64,000 bases of DNA from Rhizophagus irregularis (lineage: Eukaryota > Glomeromycota > Glomeromycetes > Glomerales > Glomeraceae): positions 124,001 through 188,000 of the forward strand of contig NC_089439.1 in the NCBI RefSeq assembly GCF_026210795.1. The letters run 5' to 3'. The translations under genes and the position numbers were made by a program. This document shows, piece after piece, positions 3,661 through 59,945 of this stretch. The notes below the pieces were generated by a model, which saw only the letters and a program-made list of their open reading frames with translations, did not search any database and was not told where the DNA came from. Each line of letters starts with the position of its first letter. Position 1 is the stretch's first letter.

Positions 3661-5014
3661 TTACGCTTCATCTAAATCAATATATCGTTTAACAAATTTC
3701 CTAATATATTGAAAATAACCAGGTTGAGAATTTGTATTATTGTGATTACCGTTTGAAAATTCTAGCCATTCTTTACCACCACTAGTTTTAGTTAATTCAA
3801 ATAATCCTTTCATATGTTCTTGTGGTATAATTTCATCTTTTGTTCCTGATAAGAATAATATTGGTATAATTTTAATTTTTTGTATAGAATTCTCTGAACG
3901 CCAATTTTGCCAACATAAAAATGAAAAATAACGTAAAAATGAAAATTTTGGAATTAAATGTGGAATTAACTTTTGCTAAAAAATCGATTGAGATAAGAAG
4001 ACAAGTCAATTTTTTTTTAATTCAAACCAAAAAAAAAAAAAAGAGAATATAATATTCGAGGTTAGAAAACTTACTATACTGAGAAATGTATTCTCAATAA
4101 TTAATGCACTAACTTTTGATTCATTCTTCGAGACTAAATCAATGGCCACAGCCCCACCCAATGACTGTCCATAAATTATTATTTTGGTTTCCTTAAATAT
4201 TTCATGTTTCGAAACATAATCCAATACTGTCTATCAAAATGAAAAAAAAAGAAAAATGAATTCAAAATTCAAAAAAAAAAAAAAAATTATTCTTGGCATA
4301 CTTGTGCGTCTATACGTAACCCCTTTTCTGCTGGTGTTCCTTCACTTCGGCCATATCTGAATTTCATATTATTTCAGTCAATGGATTTGCTAATTAGAAT
4401 ATAAATATCTTTTGACAACTTACCCTCTATAAGATAATAAAATTACATTATAATTTAACTCGAGATAAAAAATTCGTGCTATTGGTAATCGATGTCCCTT
4501 TTTTTAACAATAGAAATTAGAAAATTTAAGAAAAAGTTTTTTTTAAAAAAATGAATTTTTAATTACCATATTTCCTCCGTTACCCTAAAGTAAAAAAGAA
4601 GTAAAGTTAAAAGATGAAATTTAAATAAAATTCTAATTGCAAAGTTTAATATTTACATGAAACATTATAATAGTAGGTCGTTTTTTAGCTTCTCGATCTA
4701 TCGGTTGTTTACATACAAATGCTCTTAGACGAACATTATCTTTTGTAAATAATTTAATCTCCGAATAAGGAATTCCATATTCCGATGGTTTTGATACCTA
4801 ATATACGTACAATATATATACGCATATGGTTGTATAGGATTAATTGTTAATCGTTTTTCCCCTCAAATTTTTTAGACATAATATAAAAACTTACAAATTT
4901 CCTAGATCCCATTGGCCAATTAGATGGATAAAGCAATTCACGTTGTAATATATTATATAATAAGGCCACTCCACTAATTGTCATGATAGTAGTTGTTCCT
5001 GTGATAATTAACAT
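3661..5014 (-). CDS. BEM46/ABHD13-type alpha/beta hydrolase
   Basis: Second paralogue, same strand and exon plan as the copy just downstream. The start at 5014 gives MLIITGTTTIMTISGVALLY, a single N-terminal membrane anchor. Motifs seen are oxyanion HGNGGN (split by a microexon at 4567-4584), nucleophile YGQSLGGAVAID with an intact Ser, ENTFLSI after the nucleophile, and catalytic His in SNGNHNNTNSQPGYF near the C-terminus. The protein ends YIDLDEA. All three catalytic positions appear present, so this copy is expected to be active. The gene faces away from the plus-strand third paralogue; their start codons lie about 0.87 kb apart. Confidence 0.9.
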
Positions 5015-15812: not shown

Positions 15813-16304
15813 ATGTCAACAACCACAAAATCTCCACCACCATATTCTTCAGAACAACAATATCCGCAACAGCAAACGAATACACCTGTTGCAGGAAATC
15901 CCGTTCAAGCACAACCAATATATATGCAACCTATGCAACCACAACAACCTGGAATTGTATATATGGCGCAACCACAACTGCAACCACAACCACAACCTGG
16001 AATTGTATATATGGCGCAACCGCAACCGCAACCACAACATGTTATAAATATGGTACCCGCCGTACCAGCAGCTGCGCCAATTGGTTATTCTCATTACCCC
16101 GTTGTAGTTATTTGTCCTTATTGTCGTAATAACGTTACTACTATTGTAAATGAAACTCCTGGAAATACCGCTTACCTTTGGTCTTTTATTTTATTTTTGA
16201 TTTGTTGTCCTCTTATGTGGGTACCTTGCGTTATGTCTAGTTGTTTGGATAAAATTCACACTTGTCCTAGTTGTAGAAATGTTTTGGCGCAAGTTAAAGC
16301 TTGA
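15813..16304 (+). CDS. LITAF-domain membrane zinc-ribbon protein
   Basis: A single-exon 163-residue protein. Residues 1-95 are Pro/Gln-rich with PPPY and a near-exact internal duplication of QPGIVYMAQPQ, a typical LITAF N-terminal tail able to bind WW-domain or ESCRT partners. Residues about 98-163 form the LITAF domain: CPYCRNNV, a hydrophobic hairpin (LWSFILFLICCPLMWVPCV) that inserts into the cytosolic face of endosomal membranes, then HTCPSCRNVL. Both CxxC pairs and the conserved His are present. The start at 15813 follows AT-rich sequence and is the only in-frame Met before the PPPY motif. A role in endosomal or lysosomal membranes is inferred from the family. Confidence 0.9.
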   Translation: MSTTTKSPPPYSSEQQYPQQQTNTPVAGNPVQAQPIYMQPMQPQQPGIVYMAQPQLQPQPQPGIVYMAQPQPQPQHVINMVPAVPAAAPIGYSHYPVVVICPYCRNNVTTIVNETPGNTAYLWSFILFLICCPLMWVPCVMSSCLDKIHTCPSCRNVLAQVKA

Positions 16305-20857: not shown

Positions 20858-21442
20858 GAATTCTAATGATATTATTTAAAATGATCATCCAGACAGAAAA
20901 TTACCTTAAAATATACAAGTACAGTCTACTCTCTCTACAACGAACCTCGATATAACGAATAATATGATATAACGGATCATCTAATGTAGTACCAATTTTA
21001 AATATAAAAAAAACCTTAGTATAACGAAGTCTAGTATTTATTTATTGTATAACGTAGTATGATGTAAAGTGTGTGAATTGCTTATATAAATATGCCATTT
21101 GGTATAACGGATTTTTTTATAACAAATTTTTTTTCCATTATAACGAAGAATTTTTGCGGTTTTTAATTGAACATTCTTTAGTAATACTGGTAAATTTTTT
21201 GTAATTTTCTATATAAGATAATTTACCCCTTGCTATTTTGTTAAATATGGTAATTATTTATATAAAAATGGATTTTTACACTATACTTATCATTACTTTC
21301 ATTTATTCTTCTTTTTGATATCAATAATATGCCAAAAAAAACTCCTAGAAAGCGTAAATCACTCATATCAGCCCAAAAAAAGGAGGTTTGTTTAAAAAAA
21401 ATATTCCCTCCTTTTTTAAAACAAAAGGACTTAGCAAAAGAA

Positions 21443-21944: not shown

Positions 21945-23051
21945 GAATATGATGTTAGTGAAGGAATGGTGAGTGATATTCTGAAAGAGAAAGACCAATG
22001 GCTTGCAATGATAGATAATGATTCATATCAAGCCAATTTAAAACGTGAAAAAAAACTCAGTTTCCTATTACTGAAGAAGCACTTACTGTCTGGATAGATA
22101 AAGCATTTCAAGCTGGACTTATTTTTACTGAAAGTATTTTGACAACAAAGGTATTACTAGATTTTGCCTTATTGTATAATGAAGAAAAATTCAAAGCATC
22201 AAATGGGTGGCTTGATAATTTTAAAAAGAGACATAATCTTAAGCAGTATAATATTCATGAGGAAAAGGGTAGTGCACCAATTCAAGATCTTGATTCAATG
22301 AGAGAAAAACTTTGTCAAACATTAAGAGATTATGATCCAAAAGATATTTTTAATTGTGATGAGACGGGTCTCTTCTGGAAAATAAAACCAAATCGTACAA
22401 TATCTAATAGTTCTGTGACCGGAACTAAGCAATCTAAGGAACATGTAACTTTTTTATTTACCTGTAATTCAACCGGAACTGAAAAATTGCGCCCCTATTT
22501 ATACATAAATATGAAAATCCCAGAGTGCTTAAAAATATTAACAAAAATTCCCTTCCGGTCAATTATTATTGGAATAAAAAAAGTTGGATGCAAATGTCTA
22601 TCTGGAACGATTATCTTAAAAAATTAGATTTTTATATGAGAGCACAAAATAGGCACATACTTCTACTTGTTGACAATGCTCCAATACATACTTTATTTGA
22701 AAATACAACTCTTACGAATATTGTCATTGAATACCTTTCTCCAAATACCACATCTCACCTTCAACCCTGCGATCAAGGAATTATTAATAGTTTTAAAGTA
22801 AGAAGTAAACTTTATTTGTTTACTGTAATTGTTTTAAATTTAATATTGATTTTTTTATTTTAGGTACAATATAGAAAGTTGTATTTGTGTAATCGGGTTA
22901 AAGCTTTTGATAATTTCAATGAACATAGCACTGAACTTGGTGAAATTAACATTAAAAAATATATCAAATATATTGCACGTGCATGGGATAATGTTATGAA
23001 TGATACAATCAAAAATTGTTGGCTAAAAGCAGGTATTATATCTGAATATGG

Positions 23052-23845
23052 TATATATGCTGCCCAAATTATTTTGGGATGTCATAATTATAATTTGGAA
23101 TGCCGTAATTTATTCAGTTTATATATAATTTACTATGTAAAGTGCCAAAATAATTTGGGATGCCATAATTGAATTTGGGATTTTACTTATAATTACGGCA
23201 GCCCAAAATAATTTGGGTGGCATTGTAATAACTGAAAATATAATAGATAAATGACGCAGTAAATCCTGTGGTGCAGTAAGTCACATGATATGGTTACACA
23301 AGAAGAAATAGTTGGGAATACAAAGTCACGTGACAAGTCACATGGCGCAGTAAGTAATGGATAAATATTTAGCTGATGGATAAATAATTAGCCAATAAAA
23401 TTATATTTATAGTTTAGTTTAGTGTAACGAGATAATTAAATATGATAATAGATCTTCAAATTTTATTAGAAATATTAGAAATATTAGAAATATTTTTCTT
23501 AAAAATGTATAAATACAAGTGGATTTCGATAGGAAATTCCGCAGTTCAATTTTTGGAAAATAAAAATTTTATTTCGTCTTTAATAATAAACAAACACATT
23601 CTTTTAGCCTTTTTCTTATGAGTAAAAAGTGCCACATTAATTATTTCATTTTAATTAATGGTTTATTGAAAATATAGAGAAACTATCGTAATTTAAAATT
23701 TCGGTAAGAAATAATGTTTTGTAATTTTTGTAACTAATTTTTATTTCTAAAACCAAGCATAAATATTATACGAACTCAACACGTCGGTGGCAACATACGA
23801 TATTTTATTTTAATATCCTATGGGCGGCATGTCACAGCATGTATA
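23052..23845. mobile_element. hAT-like non-autonomous element inserted in the transposase
   Basis: Terminal inverted repeats TATATATGCTG and TATACATGCTG, with the 8-bp direct repeat GAATATGG at 23044-23051 and 23846-23853. Removal joins GIISEYG to EPSDDES in frame. An 8-bp duplication points to hAT. The left part contains further inverted CCCAAATTATTTTGGG motifs. An LTR-like fossil occupies much of the interior. Confidence 0.82.
23224..23781 (+). mobile_element. Probable solo LTR fossil
   Basis: Starts TGTAATAACTG and ends CTCAACA (TG...CA ends). It contains a TATAAATACAAG promoter-like site and AATAAA motifs in the order expected of an LTR. It lies within the hAT-like element, hence younger than it. 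A GGTGGCA repeat occurs on both sides (23216-23222, 23786-23792), but a clean 4-6 bp target duplication is not certain. No internal coding region is present. Confidence 0.45.
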
Positions 23846-24624: not shown

Positions 24625-27600
24625 TCATAACACTTCATCCACAATAGCTTTTTCAAGGTTATTCCCTATAAAAATAAAGAAAAAAGAAACGTTAGAACAT
24701 TTTTTTAAGTCAATTCACAAAAACTCCCTCCATTCAATTTATCTGAGGTTTTCAAAACTGTTCCCAAGTCATTTCCTACAAAAATAAAGAAAAAAGAAAT
24801 GTTAGAATGTTTCTTTTAAATTAATTTTATAAAAACTCCTTCCTTTCGACTTACCCGTGGTCTCCAAGATGTTTCCAAGTCATTCCTTACAAAAATAAAG
24901 AAAAAAAAAGAAATGTTAGAATGTTTCTTTAAGTCAAATCACAAAAATTCCTTCCATTCAACTTACCTGATGTCCTTCAAGACCGTTCTCAAGTCTTTTC
25001 CTACAAAATAAAGAAAAAAAAGAAATATTAGAACGTTTTTTTAAGTCAAATCACAAAAAATTCCCTCCATTCAACTTATCTGAGATCTTCCAAGACCGTT
25101 CCCAAGTCTTTCCCTACAAAAATAAAGAAAAAAAAGAAACGTTAAAATGTTTCTTTTAAATTAATTTCCAAAACTCCCTCCATTCGACTTACCCGAGGTT
25201 TTCCTGGTGTTTCCTGCAAAAATAAATAAAGAAAGAAATATTAGAACGTTTCTTTTAGGTTAATTCCCTAAACTTCCTCCATTCAACTTACCTGAGGTCC
25301 TTCAAGACCGTTTTCAAGTCGTTTCCCTGCCCGAACCTAAAAAAAAGTAAAAAACGGTTATTAGTAACTGTTCATAATATTAAAAAATATATATATATAA
25401 AAATATATAAAGATTCGTACTGTCACGTGATTGGTGATCCTGCCAATTTTATAGAACAAATGAACAATGTAGATCTATGTCACTAATATCACGAATGTCA
25501 TAGATGTATGACATATCATGAAAATCATATATAGTTGATAGGTTTAATATATTTATTTTATCTGTTATATATTATATGTATGATTTATTAGTTATATTAG
25601 TTATATATTATATAGTTATTATATTTATTTTATCTATTATTTTTGTTATATCAGAATATATAGTTAATTTTATATAAATACAATGCTGAAGACAAGTGAA
25701 AAGAAAAGGACGCTCAAGGTTGTTTAGTTTAGGAATCATGATGAAGTAATTTTGGTTTTAATGGATCCTTTATTCATATCTGATCGTATATGCCAGAGTG
25801 TTGCTATACTTTATTCATGTCTGATTGGATCATTATGATTGTTTAATTCTTTATTCATGTCTGATCGTATATGCCAGAGTGTTGCTATACTTTATTCATG
25901 TCTAATTGGATTATTTGTATTAGTTTATTGTCTTTCTTATTTTAATAAACCTTCTGCTTACCATTTTCATTTTGTTTACGTTTGTAAACACTAAAAGAAC
26001 TGACCTAACAGTACTTACGAATCTTTATCTTTGGGTTTTCATTTTTCAGAAGCCCACCCGAATCTAAAAAAAAAGAAAGAATGGTTAGTAAACCATTTGT
26101 AATAATAATAAATAAAAAAAAATTAAAAGATTCGTACTTACGAATCTTTATCTTTGGGTTTTCATTCTTCAGAAACCCACCTGAACCTATAAAAAAAAGA
26201 AATACAGTAACACCTCTCTAAGTGCACCCCCTTGGGACCATAGTAAAAAAATAGTAGAATGTGCACTTAGAGAGGGTGTGCATTTATAGAGAGTAAAATA
26301 TTAAGAGCTCTTATAAGTTGGGATCAGATCCACCGTGCACTTAAAGAGAATTTATATAGTGCGTGCACTTATAGAGGGTGCATTTATAGAGGTGTCACTG
26401 TAACGGTTATTAGTAACCGTTCGTAATATTAAAAAAAAAATATAAAAAAATAAACCAAGATTCGTACTTATGAACCTTGGTTCCTTTTTTCCCGAAGATC
26501 GGAAGCCCACTCTATTCGAACCTAAAAAAAAAAAAAAAGAATGATTATTAGTAACCGTTCATTAATATTACAAAAAATACAAAAAAAAACCAAGTTTCAT
26601 ACTTACAAATTTTGGTTTTCTGTTTTTCAGAACTCGGAACCCACCCAATCCTAAAAAAAGAAGAAAAGAATGGTTATTAATAACCATTCATAATATTAAA
26701 AAAAATAAAAAAAATAAAGATTTATACGTGTATCTTTGGGTTTTCATTCTTCGGAAGCCCACTGAACCTATAAAAAAATATACAAGAACGGTTAGTAAAC
26801 CGTTCGTAATAATAATAATAAAAAAAATAGAACCAAGATTCGTACTTACTTACGAATCTTGGTTCCTCCATTTTTCAGAAGCCCACCTGAAATACTGAAC
26901 CTATAAAAAAAAGAAAGAACAGTTAAGAATCCGTTCATAATATTAAAAAAATTAAAATTAAAAAAATTAAACCAAGATTCGTACTTATGAATCTTGGTTC
27001 CTTTTTTGCCAAAGGTCGGAAGCCCACCCGATCCTAAAAAAAAGAAAGAACAGTTATTAGTAACCGTTTGTAAAAAAAAACCAAAAAAAGAAACTAAGAT
27101 TCATACTTATATTTACAAATCTTAGTTTTCTGTTCATCAGAAGTTTACCTGAACCTATAAAAAAAAGAAAGGAACGGTTAGTAAACCGTTTCATAATAAT
27201 AAAAAAGAAAAAAAATTTAAGATTCGTAATATAATACTACTTACAAATTTTCACTTTCATTTTCCCTTTCACTTTCGTTTTACCCTTCCCTTTCATTTTA
27301 CCTTTTTCCTTTCTTTTTCATTTTACTCTTTCCCTTTCATTTTACCTTTTCCCTTTCATTTTCGTTTTACTCTTCCCCTTTCGTTTTACCTTTTCCCTTT
27401 CTTTTTTATTTACTCTTCCCCTTTCGTTTTACCTTTTCCCTTTCATTTTTCCTTTTTTTTCATTTTATTACTCTTTCCCTTCAGTTTCATTTTACCTTTC
27501 GTTTTTCCCTTTCTTTTTTTCCCTTTCTTTTTTGTTTTCCTTTTCCTTTTCATTTTTATCCTATCCTTTTCATTTTACCCTTTCCCTTCAGTTTTGTTTT

Positions 27601-27777
27601 ACCCTTTTGTTTTTACTTCCCTTTCATTTTTTCTTGCCCATTCATTTTCCTGCAAAACCTATATGAAAAATATGAACGGTTAGTAAACCGTTCATAATAC
27701 TAAAATAAAATAAAAAAACTGACTTCTCCCTCCCATTTACCTTATTATCCCTGGTGCGTAGTTTTGACTGGCATTCT
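24625..27777 (-). CDS. Putative repeat-protein gene made of ~15 mini-exons
   Basis: Read on the minus strand, repeated blocks each have an acceptor after a pyrimidine tract, a short exon, a GTAAGT-like donor and a CTAAC/TACTAAC branch site. The 5'-most recognised exon is about 27743-27777. Downstream come about eight exons of 38-50 nt (26019-27154) with open frame wording such as SGGLLKNENPKIKI, SGGLPTFGKKGTKI and SGKLLMNRKLRF. Six exons of 21-45 nt follow (24743-25336) with wording NDLGTVLKTS and KDLRTVLKDI. The last exon (24625-24665) reads NNLEKAIVDEVL then stop, overlapping AATAAA. Several exons are phase-preserving (45 or 33 nt); others are not, and some donors are ATAAGT. A first exon with signal peptide was not found. 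The plan resembles tandem-repeat secreted effectors of AM fungi (SP7-like), which is inference. It may be partly decayed. Confidence 0.5.
24743..25336 (-). repeat. 112-bp exon-intron tandem array (array 1)
   Basis: Exon blocks at 24743-24775, 24855-24885, 24967-25000, 25080-25113, 25193-25213 and 25292-25336 are spaced 112, 112, 113, 113 and 99 bp. Each intervening intron carries GTAAGT (ATAAGT or ATAAAT in two units), TTCTAAC, a pyrimidine tract and TTTTGTAG or a variant. The last block is a hybrid that begins GTTCGGG like array 2 exons and ends like array 1 exons, linking the two arrays. Confidence 0.85.
25421..26010 (+). mobile_element. Solo LTR fossil inserted in the mini-exon array
   Basis: Starts TGTCACGTGATTGG and ends GACCTAACA, flanked by the 4-bp repeat GTAC (25417-25420 and 26011-26014). 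It contains a TATAAATACAATG site, an internal tandem duplication of a segment with GATCGTATATGCCAGAGTG, and AATAAA near the end. No internal retroelement coding region remains. It interrupts a hairpin of the array at its loop, so it is younger than that unit. Family not determined; LTR-retrotransposon kin. Confidence 0.65.
26019..27154 (-). repeat. 120-136 bp exon-intron tandem array (array 2)
   Basis: Exon blocks at 26019-26063, 26142-26186, 26472-26521, 26608-26651, 26728-26767, 26854-26900, 26989-27033 and 27117-27154. Each block ends in AAGATTC or a variant, next to GTAAGT. The intron then starts with the reverse complement of the exon end, so the donor lies in a hairpin loop. Further in, a second hairpin such as AACGGTTTACTAACCGTT places the branch site in its loop. 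A transposon (26205-26400) lies in one intron. Confidence 0.85.
26205..26400. mobile_element. 196-bp pogo-like MITE in an array intron
   Basis: Ends CAGTAACACCTCTCTAAGTG and, inward from the right, CAGTGACACCTCTATAAATG. TA duplication at 26203-26204 and 26401-26402. Interior motifs GTGCACTTATAGAGGG and their complements repeat near each end. No coding sequence. Confidence 0.9.
27240..27655 (-). repeat. Purine/pyrimidine strand-biased minisatellite
   Basis: About 415 bp in which the plus strand is almost all pyrimidine plus the phrase CATTTTACC, and the minus strand repeats AAAGGGAAAAGGTAAAATG. Units of about 20 bp vary in length. It lies inside the putative mini-exon gene, directly 5' of array 2 in transcription order. 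All minus-strand frames meet stops, although stretches of Lys/Gly-rich codons (KGKTKLKGKGKMK) suggest it may once have been coding. Confidence 0.8.
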
Positions 27778-27779
27778 GA

Positions 27780-29302
27780 AAAGGAAAGATGAAGTCACAC
27801 ACGCACTAGAATTTTTTAAAAAAAAATAATAAAAAATATATTTTTTTTTTTCTGCGCCTATAGAGCCAAAAGACGAGGAAAAGAAGGAATAAAAGTTTAA
27901 AAAAGAATGCATGATTCTTATTTAAACTTTTGATATGCGTAATGTGTGACGTGACCATTTGACCAGTATGGTTAATTCGACCAATGTTTAATCATAGATC
28001 ATTGCTAATTGAGGTCAAATTTTTAATTTTAGTCAAATATAGGCCAAATTTTACTAAGACTGAATATTCTTTTTTCAACTAGTGTCTAATATAGATAAAC
28101 AAAAAAACATTATATTTTGACTAGTTTTGCGATTTAAAATTATTTATGACATCCAAATAGACATAATAATATTATTCTAATAAAAAAAAATTTTAACAAA
28201 ATTTATAAATAACAAAAAATCTGGTATAATAATCACCCTTCTAAGCTTAACAAAAGTTGTTTGTTTCGCCAAATTATAGCTAGAAATAAAATAATTAATA
28301 GTTAAAAAAAGCTTTTGCTAAAAGTTTTATTGAAATCAAAAAATTTTGTTTTTATTATAAAAATTAACTTTTTGCAGTTTACACAAAAACTACCTAAATA
28401 ACTACCTTTTTCAACTTAGTAAATCTTTTTCTTCTCATAAAATTGCATATATTTTTATTGTTTAAACTGTATTTTACATTTACTTTTAAGTGCATCTGGA
28501 GGAAAACTTCATTTTTAAGACGAACTTTCTTATATATGCAAAAAAAAATTATTATTACTAAAGAAGAAATGATGACGAAAATTTATAATACACATGATGA
28601 ACTATTAATTTACTTAATTTGTATAAGCGTTGTATTAAAAATTTCTTTTTTTAGCTACATGATGGAATATTCAATTATGGTTACACAAAATTATTTTAAT
28701 TAATGATCAGCAAGTGATCTGAAATAACCACTGACTGTTATTATTAGTCATGTTTATGATAACTGATTTACACTAGGATGTTACTCTATCATGTGACTTT
28801 CAGCTATATAATATACATAACAATTCTAGTGGTAAATTAGTTATTATCTACAATATAACTAATTTAATTATTTAATTATCAATAAAATTTTTGATAAATT
28901 TACTATTATAAATATACAGTACTATCTATTTGCAAAGTATTAGAAAGTTTTAATTAATTTAAAGATAAAGTATTTAGCAGATTTACAACTTACTTTTAAA
29001 GGATTTACAATTTTTTACAATTTTTAACTTGTTTTTTAATTTAATTTTATAAATAAATAATGCTAAAAACTATACTATTTGATAATCTAAAAATCAAAGA
29101 GAAAAACTTTGTTTAAGTTCATAGATTAAAAAATTTTTTTACTTATAATAAGTTGAATTCAAATTTAATGATTTTTACTATAATTTATATATGATTATAT
29201 GACTTAATATATTATATCCTTAAACTTATTACTATAGTGCCAAAAGTTTATACTTGATAATCATGTGATTTTATTTTAATTTTCTAAACTGATTCTATAT
29301 TA
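27780..29302. other. Gene-free AT-rich stretch
   Basis: Lies upstream of the mini-exon gene and should hold its promoter. No clear exon: a minus-strand ATG at about 27908-27910 opens a Phe/Ser-rich N-terminus (MHSFLNFYSFF) but has no proper donor. An ORF at 28443-28703 lacks motifs. Confidence 0.35.
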
Positions 29303-54961: not shown

Positions 54962-55453
54962 CCAAGCCACCCTTAACAAGAAATTCAACCATCCTTCAAT
55001 AAAGAAGCCACCCTTAACAAGAAATTCAACCATCATTCAATATAGAAGCCACCCTTAATAAGAAATTCAATCATCATTCAATATAGAAGCCACCCTTAAC
55101 AAGAAATTCAATCATCCTTCAATTTAGAAGCCACCCTTAACAAGAAATTCAATCATCATTCAATTTAGAAGCCACCCTTAACAAGAAATTCAATCATCCT
55201 TCAATTTAGAAGCCACCCTTAACAAGAAATTCAATCATCCTTCAATTTAGAAGCCACCCTTAACAAGAAATTCAACCATCATTCAATATAGAAGCCACCC
55301 TTAATAAGAAATTCAATCATCATTCAATTTAGAAGCCACCCTTAACAAGAAATTCAATCATCCTTCAATTTAGAAGCCACCCTTAACAAGAAATTCAATC
55401 ATCATTCAATTTAGAAGCCACCCTTAACAAGAAATTCAATCATCCTTCAATAT
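54962..55453. repeat. 41-bp minisatellite, 12 copies, born from the kinase glycine-loop exon
   Basis: The unit starts AGCCACCCTTAACAAGAAAT and continues TCAATCATCCTTCAATTTAGA, repeated 12 times with single-base variants (C/T and A/C at fixed places). The reverse strand reads EFLVKGGF then LKD, so the unit is a deletion derivative of the flanking glycine-loop repeat. One minus-strand frame (LLRVASKLKDD) is open in several units. Confidence 0.9.
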
Positions 55454-56216
55454 AGTTTTATAAGCCATACCGATCCCTCTCTTAGCAAGAAATTGAAAGT
55501 TATAAAAAAACTCATATTCGATCATCATTCGCAATTTAGTTTAATGAAAAATATATTTTTGATTAATAAAATACGGCTGTATACAAAAACAAGAATCTTT
55601 ACCTCGTATAAAAAAATTCTTGTGAATAATGCTATTTTACCCTCATTCCATCAACTTCATAATTTTTTTTTTATTCCATCATACTTATATTTCAATAATA
55701 CAACCATCCTTTCATTACGGTTTATAAACCGTACCAAGCCACCTCTAACAAGAAATTCAACCATCCTTCAATATAGTTTTATAAGCCATACCGATCCCCC
55801 TCTTAGCAAGAAATTCAAAGTTATAAAATAACTCATATTCGATCATCATTCACAATTTAGTCTAATGAAAAATATATTTTTGATTAATAAAATACGGCTG
55901 TATACAAAAATAAGAATCTTTACCTCGTATAAAATTCCGAGTTAATACTTTGTAAATAATGCTACTTTACCATCATTCCATCAACTTCAACCATCTTTCA
56001 TTACTATTTATAAACTGTACTGAGCCCTCCCTTAGCGAGATATTCAAAGTGATATAACTATCCTTCAATATAGTTTTATAAGCCATACCGATCCCTCTCT
56101 TAGCAAGAAAATCAACGTTATAAAATAACTCATATTCGATCCATTCAAAAGTTATACGTCATTCGCAGTTTAATCTAATGAAAAATATATTTATGATTAA
56201 TAAATACGTTTGTATA

Positions 56217-57613: not shown

Positions 57614-59096
57614 AATTACAATTATATAATAAAAGTTTTTGTAGTGATGAAAAAGCTCCCAAATGAAAAAAAATCTTTTGATCCTCAAATTTAATTCCAA
57701 TTAAACTTAAAGATTTTAAATTTTTTGCATGAGATTCTTTTAATTCTTCCATAACTAAAGAAAAATCCACTGGACAATTATGTAATATAAAATGTGATAA
57801 ATTTTTTTGTTTATGAATTAATTTAATTAAATTTGCAACTTCTTCTCTTAAAAAAGAACTTTCTCTTGATAAAAGCCAATTTAAATAATTTGCTTCAACT
57901 GAATGATCAATATTTATTTCCAATTTATCAAGATTATGTACATATTTTGATAATGATAAAAAGAAATTTGACATATTTCTCTTTGTCGTACAAATCAATT
58001 CCCTAATATTTGATAAACAATTTATCGCGTTAAAATATTTAGGTAATGATAAGTAAATTTCTGCCACCTTATATTCAGGATTATCTCTTACACCTCTCTT
58101 ATATAATGATAAAGCCGTTGAATACCGTTGATAATCTTTACATGGATTAAAAATAGATTTGTGATAAATTTGATTTACGTCGAATGAAAGTCGTCGTAAA
58201 TTATTTTTACATTTTCTCATAAAAAAATTCAAAATAATTTCTGATATAATTTGATATTGAGAAATAGTATTTCTTAATTCCATCAATACTTTTGGATCGG
58301 CCAAATATTTTATTATTTCCGAATAATCTAATTTTTCAATTATTTCGGTTGATGTTGATTGATCTGATTGAGTCGTATCATTTGTCTCATTCGTCACATT
58401 TGTCGCATTCGTCGTTGCATTTGTCACATTTGTCTCATTCGTCTCATTCGTCTCATTCGTCTCATTCGTCTCATTCATCGCATTCGTTACATTCGTCTCA
58501 TTCGTCTCATTTGTCGTATTCGTCTCATTCGTCTCATTCGTCTCATTCATCGCGTTCGTCGTATTCGTCGCATTCGTCACATTTGTCTCACTCTCATTTG
58601 TAGTATGATAATCAGATGTAATTTCTTCAAAAAAATTTTCCGGTATAATTGGATCAATATCATTATCATTTTGAATCTTTTCATTAAAATTTATTTCATA
58701 AAAATTATAAAAATCAATTATAGCCAAATCAAATTCATGTATATCAATATTTCTTAAAAAATCAATATAATTATGCATAGGATTTAAAATTTGTCCTTGT
58801 TTAATAATATTATTATCAATTAAATCTTGTTCATTTTCTAAAATTATAAAAGTAATATAAATATTAATTAATGAAGAAGCTTGACGTCTTCTAGTTAAAA
58901 ATTTACAGTTACAAGTAGGTGAATCCTCTAATTTTGAAATACAAGAATAAAGTAGTCGAAATGGTTGACTCCAAAGAATATCAATTGTTTGAGACCACCA
59001 TGTTTTATTCACTAATAAACAACGAAAGAGCGATGCTTTATCGTCTTTTATATACAAAATTATATTTCGAATTATATCTGAATTCAATAATTTCAT
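56859..59096 (-). CDS. F-box / leucine-rich-repeat-like protein with Asn/Thr/Glu tract
   Basis: Single-exon 745-residue protein. The N-terminus MKLLNSDIIRNIILYIKDDK, CLLVNKTWWSQTIDILWSQP is an F-box, which would link the protein to Skp1 and an SCF ubiquitin ligase. Residues about 165-235 are an NET/NAT/NVT repeat coded by tandem hexa- and nonanucleotides (58383-58600). A poly-Asn run lies near 57565-57610. The rest has irregular Leu/Ile/Asn-rich repeats (LKSLSLIGIKFED, LQKLLLYNCNF, LKYLDIGKRYS), a substrate-binding solenoid. Expanded families of such intronless F-box genes are typical of these fungi. The start at 59096 follows an A/T-rich leader. Confidence 0.85.
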
Positions 59097-59550: not shown

Positions 59551-59945
59551 AAAAAATATAAATTAGAACTTTTTTGTTGCCACCCAAAATTAGATTAGAA
59601 CTTTTTCGTTATCCCTTCCCCATAAATACATAAATCAGAACTTTTTTCGTTATCCTTTCCCATAATTATATAAATTAGAACTTTTTGTCATCACTTCCCC
59701 ATAAATACGTAAATTCGGTATCACTTCCCCATAAACACATAAATTAGAACTTTTTCGTTACCACCCACGCATAAACATATAAATTAGAACTTTTTTCGTT
59801 ATCCTTTCCCATAATTATATAAATTAGAACTTTCTCGTTATCACTTCCCCATAAACACGTAAATTAGTTATCACTTCCCCATAAATGCGTAAATTCGTTA
59901 TCCCCTTTCTCATAAATACATAAATTTTAGAACTTCCCTTCCCTA
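59551..59945. repeat. Irregular ~36-60 bp tandem repeat
   Basis: Units contain ATAAATTAGAACTTTTTCG and TTATCACTTCCCCATAAA in changing combinations, about eight copies with internal deletions. Followed by CATTCACCCATTATTCACCC repeats (59970-60015) that reach the 3' end of the next F-box gene. Confidence 0.85.

Follow-up and report, generated by a model that had tools for sequence, protein, structure and literature searches.

Tandem mini-exon arrays borne by two DNA transposon families of Rhizophagus irregularis, probably joined in one decayed chimera

Short exon-like blocks recur at regular distances on the minus strand of one locus in the genome of Rhizophagus irregularis, and the question arises whether such a chain represents a gene with many isoforms or something else. 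The locus was examined within a window of 64,000 nucleotides (nt), positions 124001-188000 of contig C11 (NC_089439.1), in a genome of 146.7 Mb on 32 contigs. A sequence-only reading had described a single array of mini-exons, each in its own exon-intron module, and had predicted a large set of isoforms, likening the layout to that of SP7-like effectors. The answer reached here is a different one: the locus probably represents two arrays of exon-intron modules, both borne by transposons and fused into a now decayed chimera, with one carried by a CACTA-type element and the other by a pogo/Tc5-like element, the modules being likely spliced in sister copies.

The mini-exon array itself proved to be real. 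Fourteen mini-exons of 21-50 nt, flanked by a 5' block and a terminal exon, are aligned on the minus strand, and each of them is preceded by a T-rich tract and AG. The whole unit (24625-28084) consists of a first exon, a purine-rich exon, eight mini-exons of array 2 (26019-27154), one hybrid exon, five mini-exons of array 1 and the terminal exon (array 1 in total, 24625-25336). It extends further than was first described, to a CACTA-type end on one side and to the end of a pogo-like element on the other (Table 1). The repeat period of array 1, 112-113 base pairs (bp), and the terminal exon with a stop codon overlapping AATAAA agreed with the sequence-only reading, which had also assigned a donor to every block; GT is present at 10 of the 14 mini-exons, once as GTATAA, but AT stands in its place at the other four. 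Since just 6 of the 14 mini-exon lengths are divisible by three, phase is not generally kept in the window array, and the idea of modules that could be added or skipped without frame loss was not borne out here. Because four donors lack GT and two transposons interrupt the array, the window copy looks dead and is most likely no longer functional.

Repetition of the units far beyond chance was confirmed, with at least 431 matching stretches of array 2 and at least 79 of array 1 in the genome. They do not form one array but belong to two families joined at the hybrid exon, which has a single genome match at three or fewer mismatches. Clear homology between the families was not found when the array 1 model was searched against array 2 regions and the array 2 model against array 1 regions, because these cross-searches gave either near-control E values (best E 0.00023 outside the array 1 of the window, compared with 0.0021 for reversed sequence) or hits in array-2 copies, one at the array 2 end in the window itself and one in a distinct array of locus L070. 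A diverged array-2-like array at L070:6083-7613 lies downstream of an array 1 copy, at a distance of a few kb, and a distant relative of array 1 with the donor GTATGT lies in L078 around 3905-4091. From the array-2 matches listed, 40 arrays including that of the window were defined (at least 40 in the genome). The number of units differs among copies, from 11 to 20 model matches per region, some regions being incomplete.

Array-2 arrays are flanked by the ends CACTAGTCGAAAAAGG... and ...GACTAGTG, terminal inverted repeats that begin with CACTA or CACTG, and identical 3-bp flanks (CTA, TAT, GAG and GAT) were detected in all four copies whose two ends were both visible. The end queries were derived from array-bearing copies; 40 of 89 and 40 of 78 candidates were scored for the two ends and 40 of 127 for a variant end, and the resulting counts are lower bounds. 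At least 19 end pairs lie less than 6 kb apart, and 16 of 19 enclose an array among those listed. End pairs enclosing no array among the matches listed are located at C31:79931-83805, C20:1399777-1402341 and C25:3476543-3477922. An end was found within 4.5 kb of 27 of the 40 arrays (side and orientation not required), and in 11 of the remaining 13 the variant end CACTGGTCG is located upstream in the right orientation, for which the chance expectation is about 0.0006 per array; thus 38 of the 40 arrays examined are near CACTA-type ends. Since end pairs enclose arrays and the 3-bp flanks are identical, the carrier of array 2 is assigned to the CACTA-type transposons, and array 2 would, as far as the sequence tells, be the body of an apparently non-autonomous element. 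Matches to PF02992 (Transposase_21) are abundant in the genome, 155 in total, and among those listed none was found inside an array element when coordinates were compared by eye.

The best-preserved CACTA-type copy read, that on contig C13, has the layout of one transcription unit, in the order of first exons, purine-rich exon, mini-exon chain and terminal exon with polyadenylation signals. Its sequence includes 16 consecutive predicted introns of 75-100 nt with CTAA branch sites and T-rich tracts, 11 of the 16 having the donor GTAAGT. CACTA-type copies are located, among other places, at C13:728690-732013, C2:1790229-1792254 and C11:4914897-4918242. Near-identical copies of the array exist at C5:1898807, C30:101923, C30:127948, C13:729162 and C10:5096875, some pairs of which differ by small indels, mainly in exon centres. 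Outside CpG, the C5 copy differs from the two C30 copies at 9-10 of about 415 exon sites and 2 of about 620 intron sites, the exon differences being partly alignment shifts at indels; from the C13 and C10 copies it differs at no exon site and at 2-4 intron sites. Differences in exon centres between near-identical copies would be either long-read consensus errors or a mutational hot spot.

The carrier of array 1 is of another kind. In L071, L072 and L076, array 1 is located between ends CAGTCTCCTC... (like CAGTCTCCTCTCGATATAACGAAC) with TA on both sides; in L073 such ends are 7.5 kb apart and may not belong together, and the window copy retains one end of the pogo-like element. The transposase domains DDE_1 and HTH_Tnp_Tc5 (DNA-binding, Tc5/CENP-B type) were detected in the window copy only, in broken pieces, and the transposase stretch of the window is common to L073 and L076, within the element. 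L069-L074 and L076 each contain six to nine matches to the array 1 model, in the orientation opposite to the transposase. In L075 and L077, array 1 is carried by a smaller element whose inverted ends differ, and it is therefore found between two kinds of ends. As part of the explanation as a whole, array 1 probably belongs to a pogo/Tc5-like DNA transposon, and the window copy is probably a chimera, with its 5' half from a CACTA-type element and its 3' half from a pogo-like one.

Published gene models provide evidence on splicing of the arrays. A total of 160 annotated proteins match part of the spliced C13 translation at E of 0.01 or less, the 120 listed being all from Rhizophagus irregularis, and four proteins match the array 1 exon wording (best E 4.6e-14). 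The model P0100 (OCT59_011799) fits the copy on C2. Four models, OCT59_003532 and RIR_jg29739.t3,.t4 and.t6, fit C11:4914302-4917467, the one locus tried, almost without mismatch and near the maximal score, with the aligned part running from residue 26 or 37 onward. These models have 15, 12, 11 and 13 exons, respectively, of which 11, 9, 8 and 10 begin within 3 nt of an independently found module exon; among their 14, 11, 10 and 12 donors, 8, 6, 6 and 7 are exact module donors, and 10, 9, 8 and 9 agree if a shift of 4 or 8 nt is allowed. The four models differ from each other in skipped exons and in donors 4 or 8 nt apart. The RIR_jg models are described, for the pipeline as a whole, as AUGUSTUS predictions with RNA-sequencing intron hints (PMC6123716), and the OCT59 models as BRAKER predictions with RNA sequencing and refinement by Nanopore cDNA (PMC10234402). 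Isoform labels of t2 or higher occur at 6 of 8 RIR_jg loci among the 120 matches listed, in comparison with a reported 43,675 isoforms for 41,572 gene models genome-wide (PMC6123716). An exact-pattern search for TACTAAC introns gave 77 hits and its reversed control 87, and was not used.

Because the published models cut a sister copy at module junctions, with exon skipping and 4-nt donor shifts, the array units are most likely spliced into several isoforms, as judged from these models. The predicted isoform set thus holds for the family, by way of the models of sister loci, but not for the window copy, which is decayed and interrupted. Since CMC-EnSpm and Plavaka are described as superfamilies in which colonised tissue has more families expressed (PMC11075540), expression of these arrays is plausible.

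Inverted repeats at the splice sites, a feature absent from the sequence-only reading, are the best-kept part of the modules. From 273 matches to the array 2 model, 223 full-length modules in 18 regions were aligned, and the best-kept columns form two inverted repeats, one centred on the donor (AAGATTCGTAAGTACGAATCTT) and the other on the branch site (GAACGGTTACTAATAACCGTTC). Of the 223 modules, 198 have an acceptor that could be located, and 179 of these 198 have a GT donor; palindrome arms of at least 7 bp surround 154 of the 179 donors and none of 26 GTAAGT sites elsewhere in the window. Likewise, such arms surround the branch site in 155 of the 209 modules with CTAA far enough inside, compared with 6 of 63 CTAAC sites elsewhere in the window. 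In C13, all 16 donor regions are palindromic, in several wordings, as are 15 of 16 branch regions, one with TTACCAG in place of the CTAA site, and the sixteenth is the usual palindrome by eye. A branch palindrome of at least 7 bp was also detected in 21 of 54 array 1 modules. Some pairs have changed on both sides, including columns 38-53 in 16 modules, 34-57 in 73 and 90-105 in 45. Folding was compared with that of shuffled sequences, giving z of -7.0 for one window module and -2.8 and -2.4 for two others.

The decay of these palindromes, mainly by CpG transitions in array 2, bears on two other explanations. The array might be a neutral minisatellite, an exon-intron fragment captured and expanded in tandem inside transposons and functionless in itself, for which the CpG decay, the broken window copy and the variable unit number (11 to 20) would be expected. 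The A/T positions of the palindromes are, however, kept at 98-100% across diverged units, except for the co-varying pair 38-53, while exon centres vary, and the same architecture is common to two transposon families, with array 1 between two kinds of ends; we regard a mere minisatellite as unlikely. Subterminal repeats of CACTA elements are protein-binding sites, and the palindromes might similarly act on the DNA level, binding a transposase or an accessory protein, for instance, with the likeness to introns as a by-product. The array 2 palindromes are near-perfect in Watson-Crick pairing and decay alike on both strands, and even the terminal unit without a donor is palindromic (GATTCGTATATACGAATAC), all of which fits this explanation. 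It does not account as well for donor, branch site, T-tract and AG standing in the correct order in most units of two transposon families without clear homology, for the other C13 introns, whose palindromes are worded differently but hold donor and branch site at the same place, or for published models that splice at palindromic module sites. A purely DNA-level role is accordingly also rated as doubtful.

Could the modules instead encode a real protein family, fast-evolving, with short basic repeats in skippable exons and possibly effectors among its members? Several features are in agreement with such a family, including the 160 and four matching proteins, the start exon with the wording VETTHRTLDNK that recurs among models, and the exons that differ more than introns in some pairs of near-identical copies. 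Among 198 array-2 exons, which are related copies and not independent, 96 have a length divisible by three, above one third; they contain 175 stops, compared with 231.9 (standard deviation 9.4) in dinucleotide shuffles, and 87 are open in all three frames, compared with 51.2 (standard deviation 5.2). In contrast, the other 102 lengths are not divisible by three, none of the frames is favoured (128, 152 and 165 of the 198 exons are stop-free in the three frames), and indels of a multiple of three do not occur more often in exons (55 of 299) than in introns (56 of 281), sizes being measured against the model and including length changes common to related copies. All three frames are interrupted by stops within the 563-nt exon of the spliced C13 transcript. 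Published models translate one and the same exon type in three frames, as SGGLPKNENPKIR, FGWASEERKPKDS and VGFRRTKTQRF, and the models of the near-identical C5 and C13 copies (P0001 and P0073) read the corresponding exon in different frames. Phase keeping thus failed in the family as well, and none of the six models tested has a Pfam family over cut-off. The RNA probably yields no conserved protein, and a genuine protein family appears quite improbable.

The repeats that were expected in the proteome behind a signal peptide do occur there, in the 160 and four proteins, but the N-termini of 23 models, mostly with hydrophilic starts, showed no clear signal peptide by eye. In P0004, P0006 and P0116, segments rich in F, P and L were noted by eye close to the start. 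The label 'TRIO and F-actin-binding protein-like' of P0063, a model of the array 2 transposon family, is most likely due to chance. The link to SP7-like effectors was set aside as the leading explanation on these grounds: the arrays are transposon cargo and number at least 40, the frame is not kept, a clear signal peptide was not seen by eye in the models, and the SP7 family is small.

For the chimera of two transposon-borne arrays, the following mode of action is proposed. The donor and branch palindromes would probably fold into hairpins in the transcript, making the choice of splice sites variable; and, as the weakest step, a chain of removable introns may allow the element to be transcribed at low cost within or beside host genes. 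Its most likely role would be that of a cheap passenger in transcripts.

A number of observations weigh against this proposal. The benefit to the element is one that we infer. Support for splicing comes from gene models, and in tandem repeats junctions may be mapped wrongly. An autonomous CACTA partner sharing the array 2 ends was not identified. Donor palindrome arms of 7 bp or more are present in none of 51 array 1 modules. A looser donor stem in array 1 showed 114 G-U against 12 A-C states, mostly as fixed G-U pairs; it was not counted, because it has no two-sided change and Watson-Crick pairs fill just 409 of 677 cells. G-U and A-C states number 39 and 36 in the ten core pairs of the array 2 donor, 34 and 56 in eight of the array 2 branch pairs, and 21 and 57 at the array 1 branch. 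The donor G has changed to A in 18 of 213 modules, and its palindromic mate C, a base that splicing does not need, has changed to T at a similar rate (19 of 200). Because the palindromes decay alike on both strands, selection on them as RNA hairpins was not supported. The half-way G-U states are no commoner than A-C, and the palindromes therefore seem to have been kept during the divergence of subfamilies, with the present copies decaying as DNA.

A bolder proposal is that these elements form a class of DNA transposons with a programmed splicing substrate as the body, in which chains of exons, often readable in each of the three frames and with donor and branch site locked in hairpins, give a large and partly random set of isoforms. 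We consider this improbable; if true, the isoform RNAs or peptides could serve the element, for example in escape from RNA-based genome defence, or be adopted by the fungus. The readings discussed overlap, and their probabilities are not intended to sum to one.

Table 1. Parts of the chimeric unit and neighbouring features (window positions)
Feature	Position	Strand	Basis
5' terminal inverted repeat (CACTAGTTGAAAA...) of the CACTA-type element carrying array 2	28066-28084	-	Sequence; both-ended copies elsewhere
First exon of the CACTA-type unit; start region as in model P0100, here shorter, early stops in the P0100 frame	27741-27775	-	
Long low-complexity exon, purine-rich; donor GTAAGT	27244-27657	-	
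Array 2 mini-exon, 38 nt; donor GTAAAT	27117-27154	-	
Array 2 mini-exon, 45 nt; donor lost (ATAAGT), palindrome kept	26989-27033	-	
Array 2 mini-exon, 47 nt; donor GTAAGT within 15-bp inverted repeat	26854-26900	-	
Array 2 mini-exon, 40 nt; donor GTATAA, weak	26728-26767	-	
Array 2 mini-exon, 44 nt; donor GTAAGT	26607-26650	-	
Array 2 mini-exon, 50 nt; donor lost (ATAAGT)	26472-26521	-	
Insertion like a miniature inverted-repeat transposable element; inverted ends CAGTGACACCTCTATAAATGCACC / GGTGCACTTAGAGAGGTGTTACTG; TA flanks	26205-26400	.	
Array 2 mini-exon, 45 nt; donor GTAAGT within 11-bp inverted repeat	26142-26186	-	
Array 2 mini-exon, 45 nt; insertion splits donor palindrome	26019-26063	-	
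Insertion like a solo long terminal repeat, TG...CA ends; GTAC flanks	25421-26010	.	
Hybrid exon: array 1 exon body with array 2 acceptor and first bases	25292-25336	-	
Array 1 mini-exon, 21 nt; donor GTAAGT	25193-25213	-	
Array 1 mini-exon, 34 nt; donor lost (ATAAGT)	25080-25113	-	
Array 1 mini-exon, 34 nt; donor GTAAGT	24967-25000	-	
Array 1 mini-exon, 31 nt; donor GTAAGT	24855-24885	-	
Array 1 mini-exon, 33 nt; donor lost (ATAAAT)	24743-24775	-	
Array 1 terminal exon; final TGA overlaps AATAAA	24625-24665	-	
Broken pogo/Tc5-like transposase pieces of the array 1 carrier	22139-23172	+	HTH_Tnp_Tc5 and DDE_1 over cut-off; third DDE_1 piece below
3' terminal inverted repeat (GTTCGTTGTAGAGAGAGTAGACTG) of the pogo-like element, TA adjoining	20922-20945	-	

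Elsewhere in the window, an open reading frame at 15813-16304 has a LITAF-like zinc ribbon domain and a Q/P-rich start, and other tandem arrays are located at 54964-55455, 58373-58590 and 59594-59924, with periods of 41, 9 and about 149 bp, respectively.

The two carriers resemble known transposons except for their cargo. The array 2 carrier agrees with CACTA/CMC/EnSpm elements of the Plavaka group in its ends and 3-bp target duplication, but the array 2 copies read are filled by an array of splice modules. The array 1 carrier is like pogo/Tc5 elements in the TA on both sides, the inverted ends and the DDE_1 and HTH_Tnp_Tc5 pieces, but bears a mini-exon array opposite to the transposase. Introners occur as single introns at many host-gene sites, and introner-like elements have marked secondary structure. 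With these and with the repeated stwintrons described from fungi, the arrays share the presence of many near-identical spliceosomal introns per genome; in the arrays seen here, in contrast, the introns travel with exons inside larger transposons. In the micro-exon genes of schistosomes, exons are skipped and the mini-exons keep the reading phase. Chains of short exons are described for these genes (PMC10526429), as are introns of up to 5 kbp, whereas the arrays here have short introns, do not keep phase and are transposon cargo. Plavaka elements are described as prevalent in DAOM197198 (PMC11075540), in the main text of which the words tandem, satellite and intron are absent. SP7-like effectors, from the same organism, also have short hydrophilic repeats, and are described as five core genes and their paralogues, which have a signal peptide and carry a conserved intron ahead of the first repeat (PMC11333574); by that description they differ from at least 40 arrays with an intron in nearly every unit and no clear signal peptide by eye. 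We found no description of such arrays in the titles and abstract openings of the open-licence papers searched.

In two DNA transposon families of Rhizophagus irregularis, exon-intron modules are arranged in tandem; the branch sites are palindromic in both families, the donors in one of them. Provided that the modules are spliced as the models suggest, they would readily supply alternative splicing, and might also give rise to new introns, in a fungus whose genome is about half repeats. Many proteins of this symbiont annotated as 'uncharacterized' may be exons of transposons, which is relevant to catalogues of effectors, and the arrays offer a natural test of the effects of hairpins at donor and branch sites on fungal splicing.

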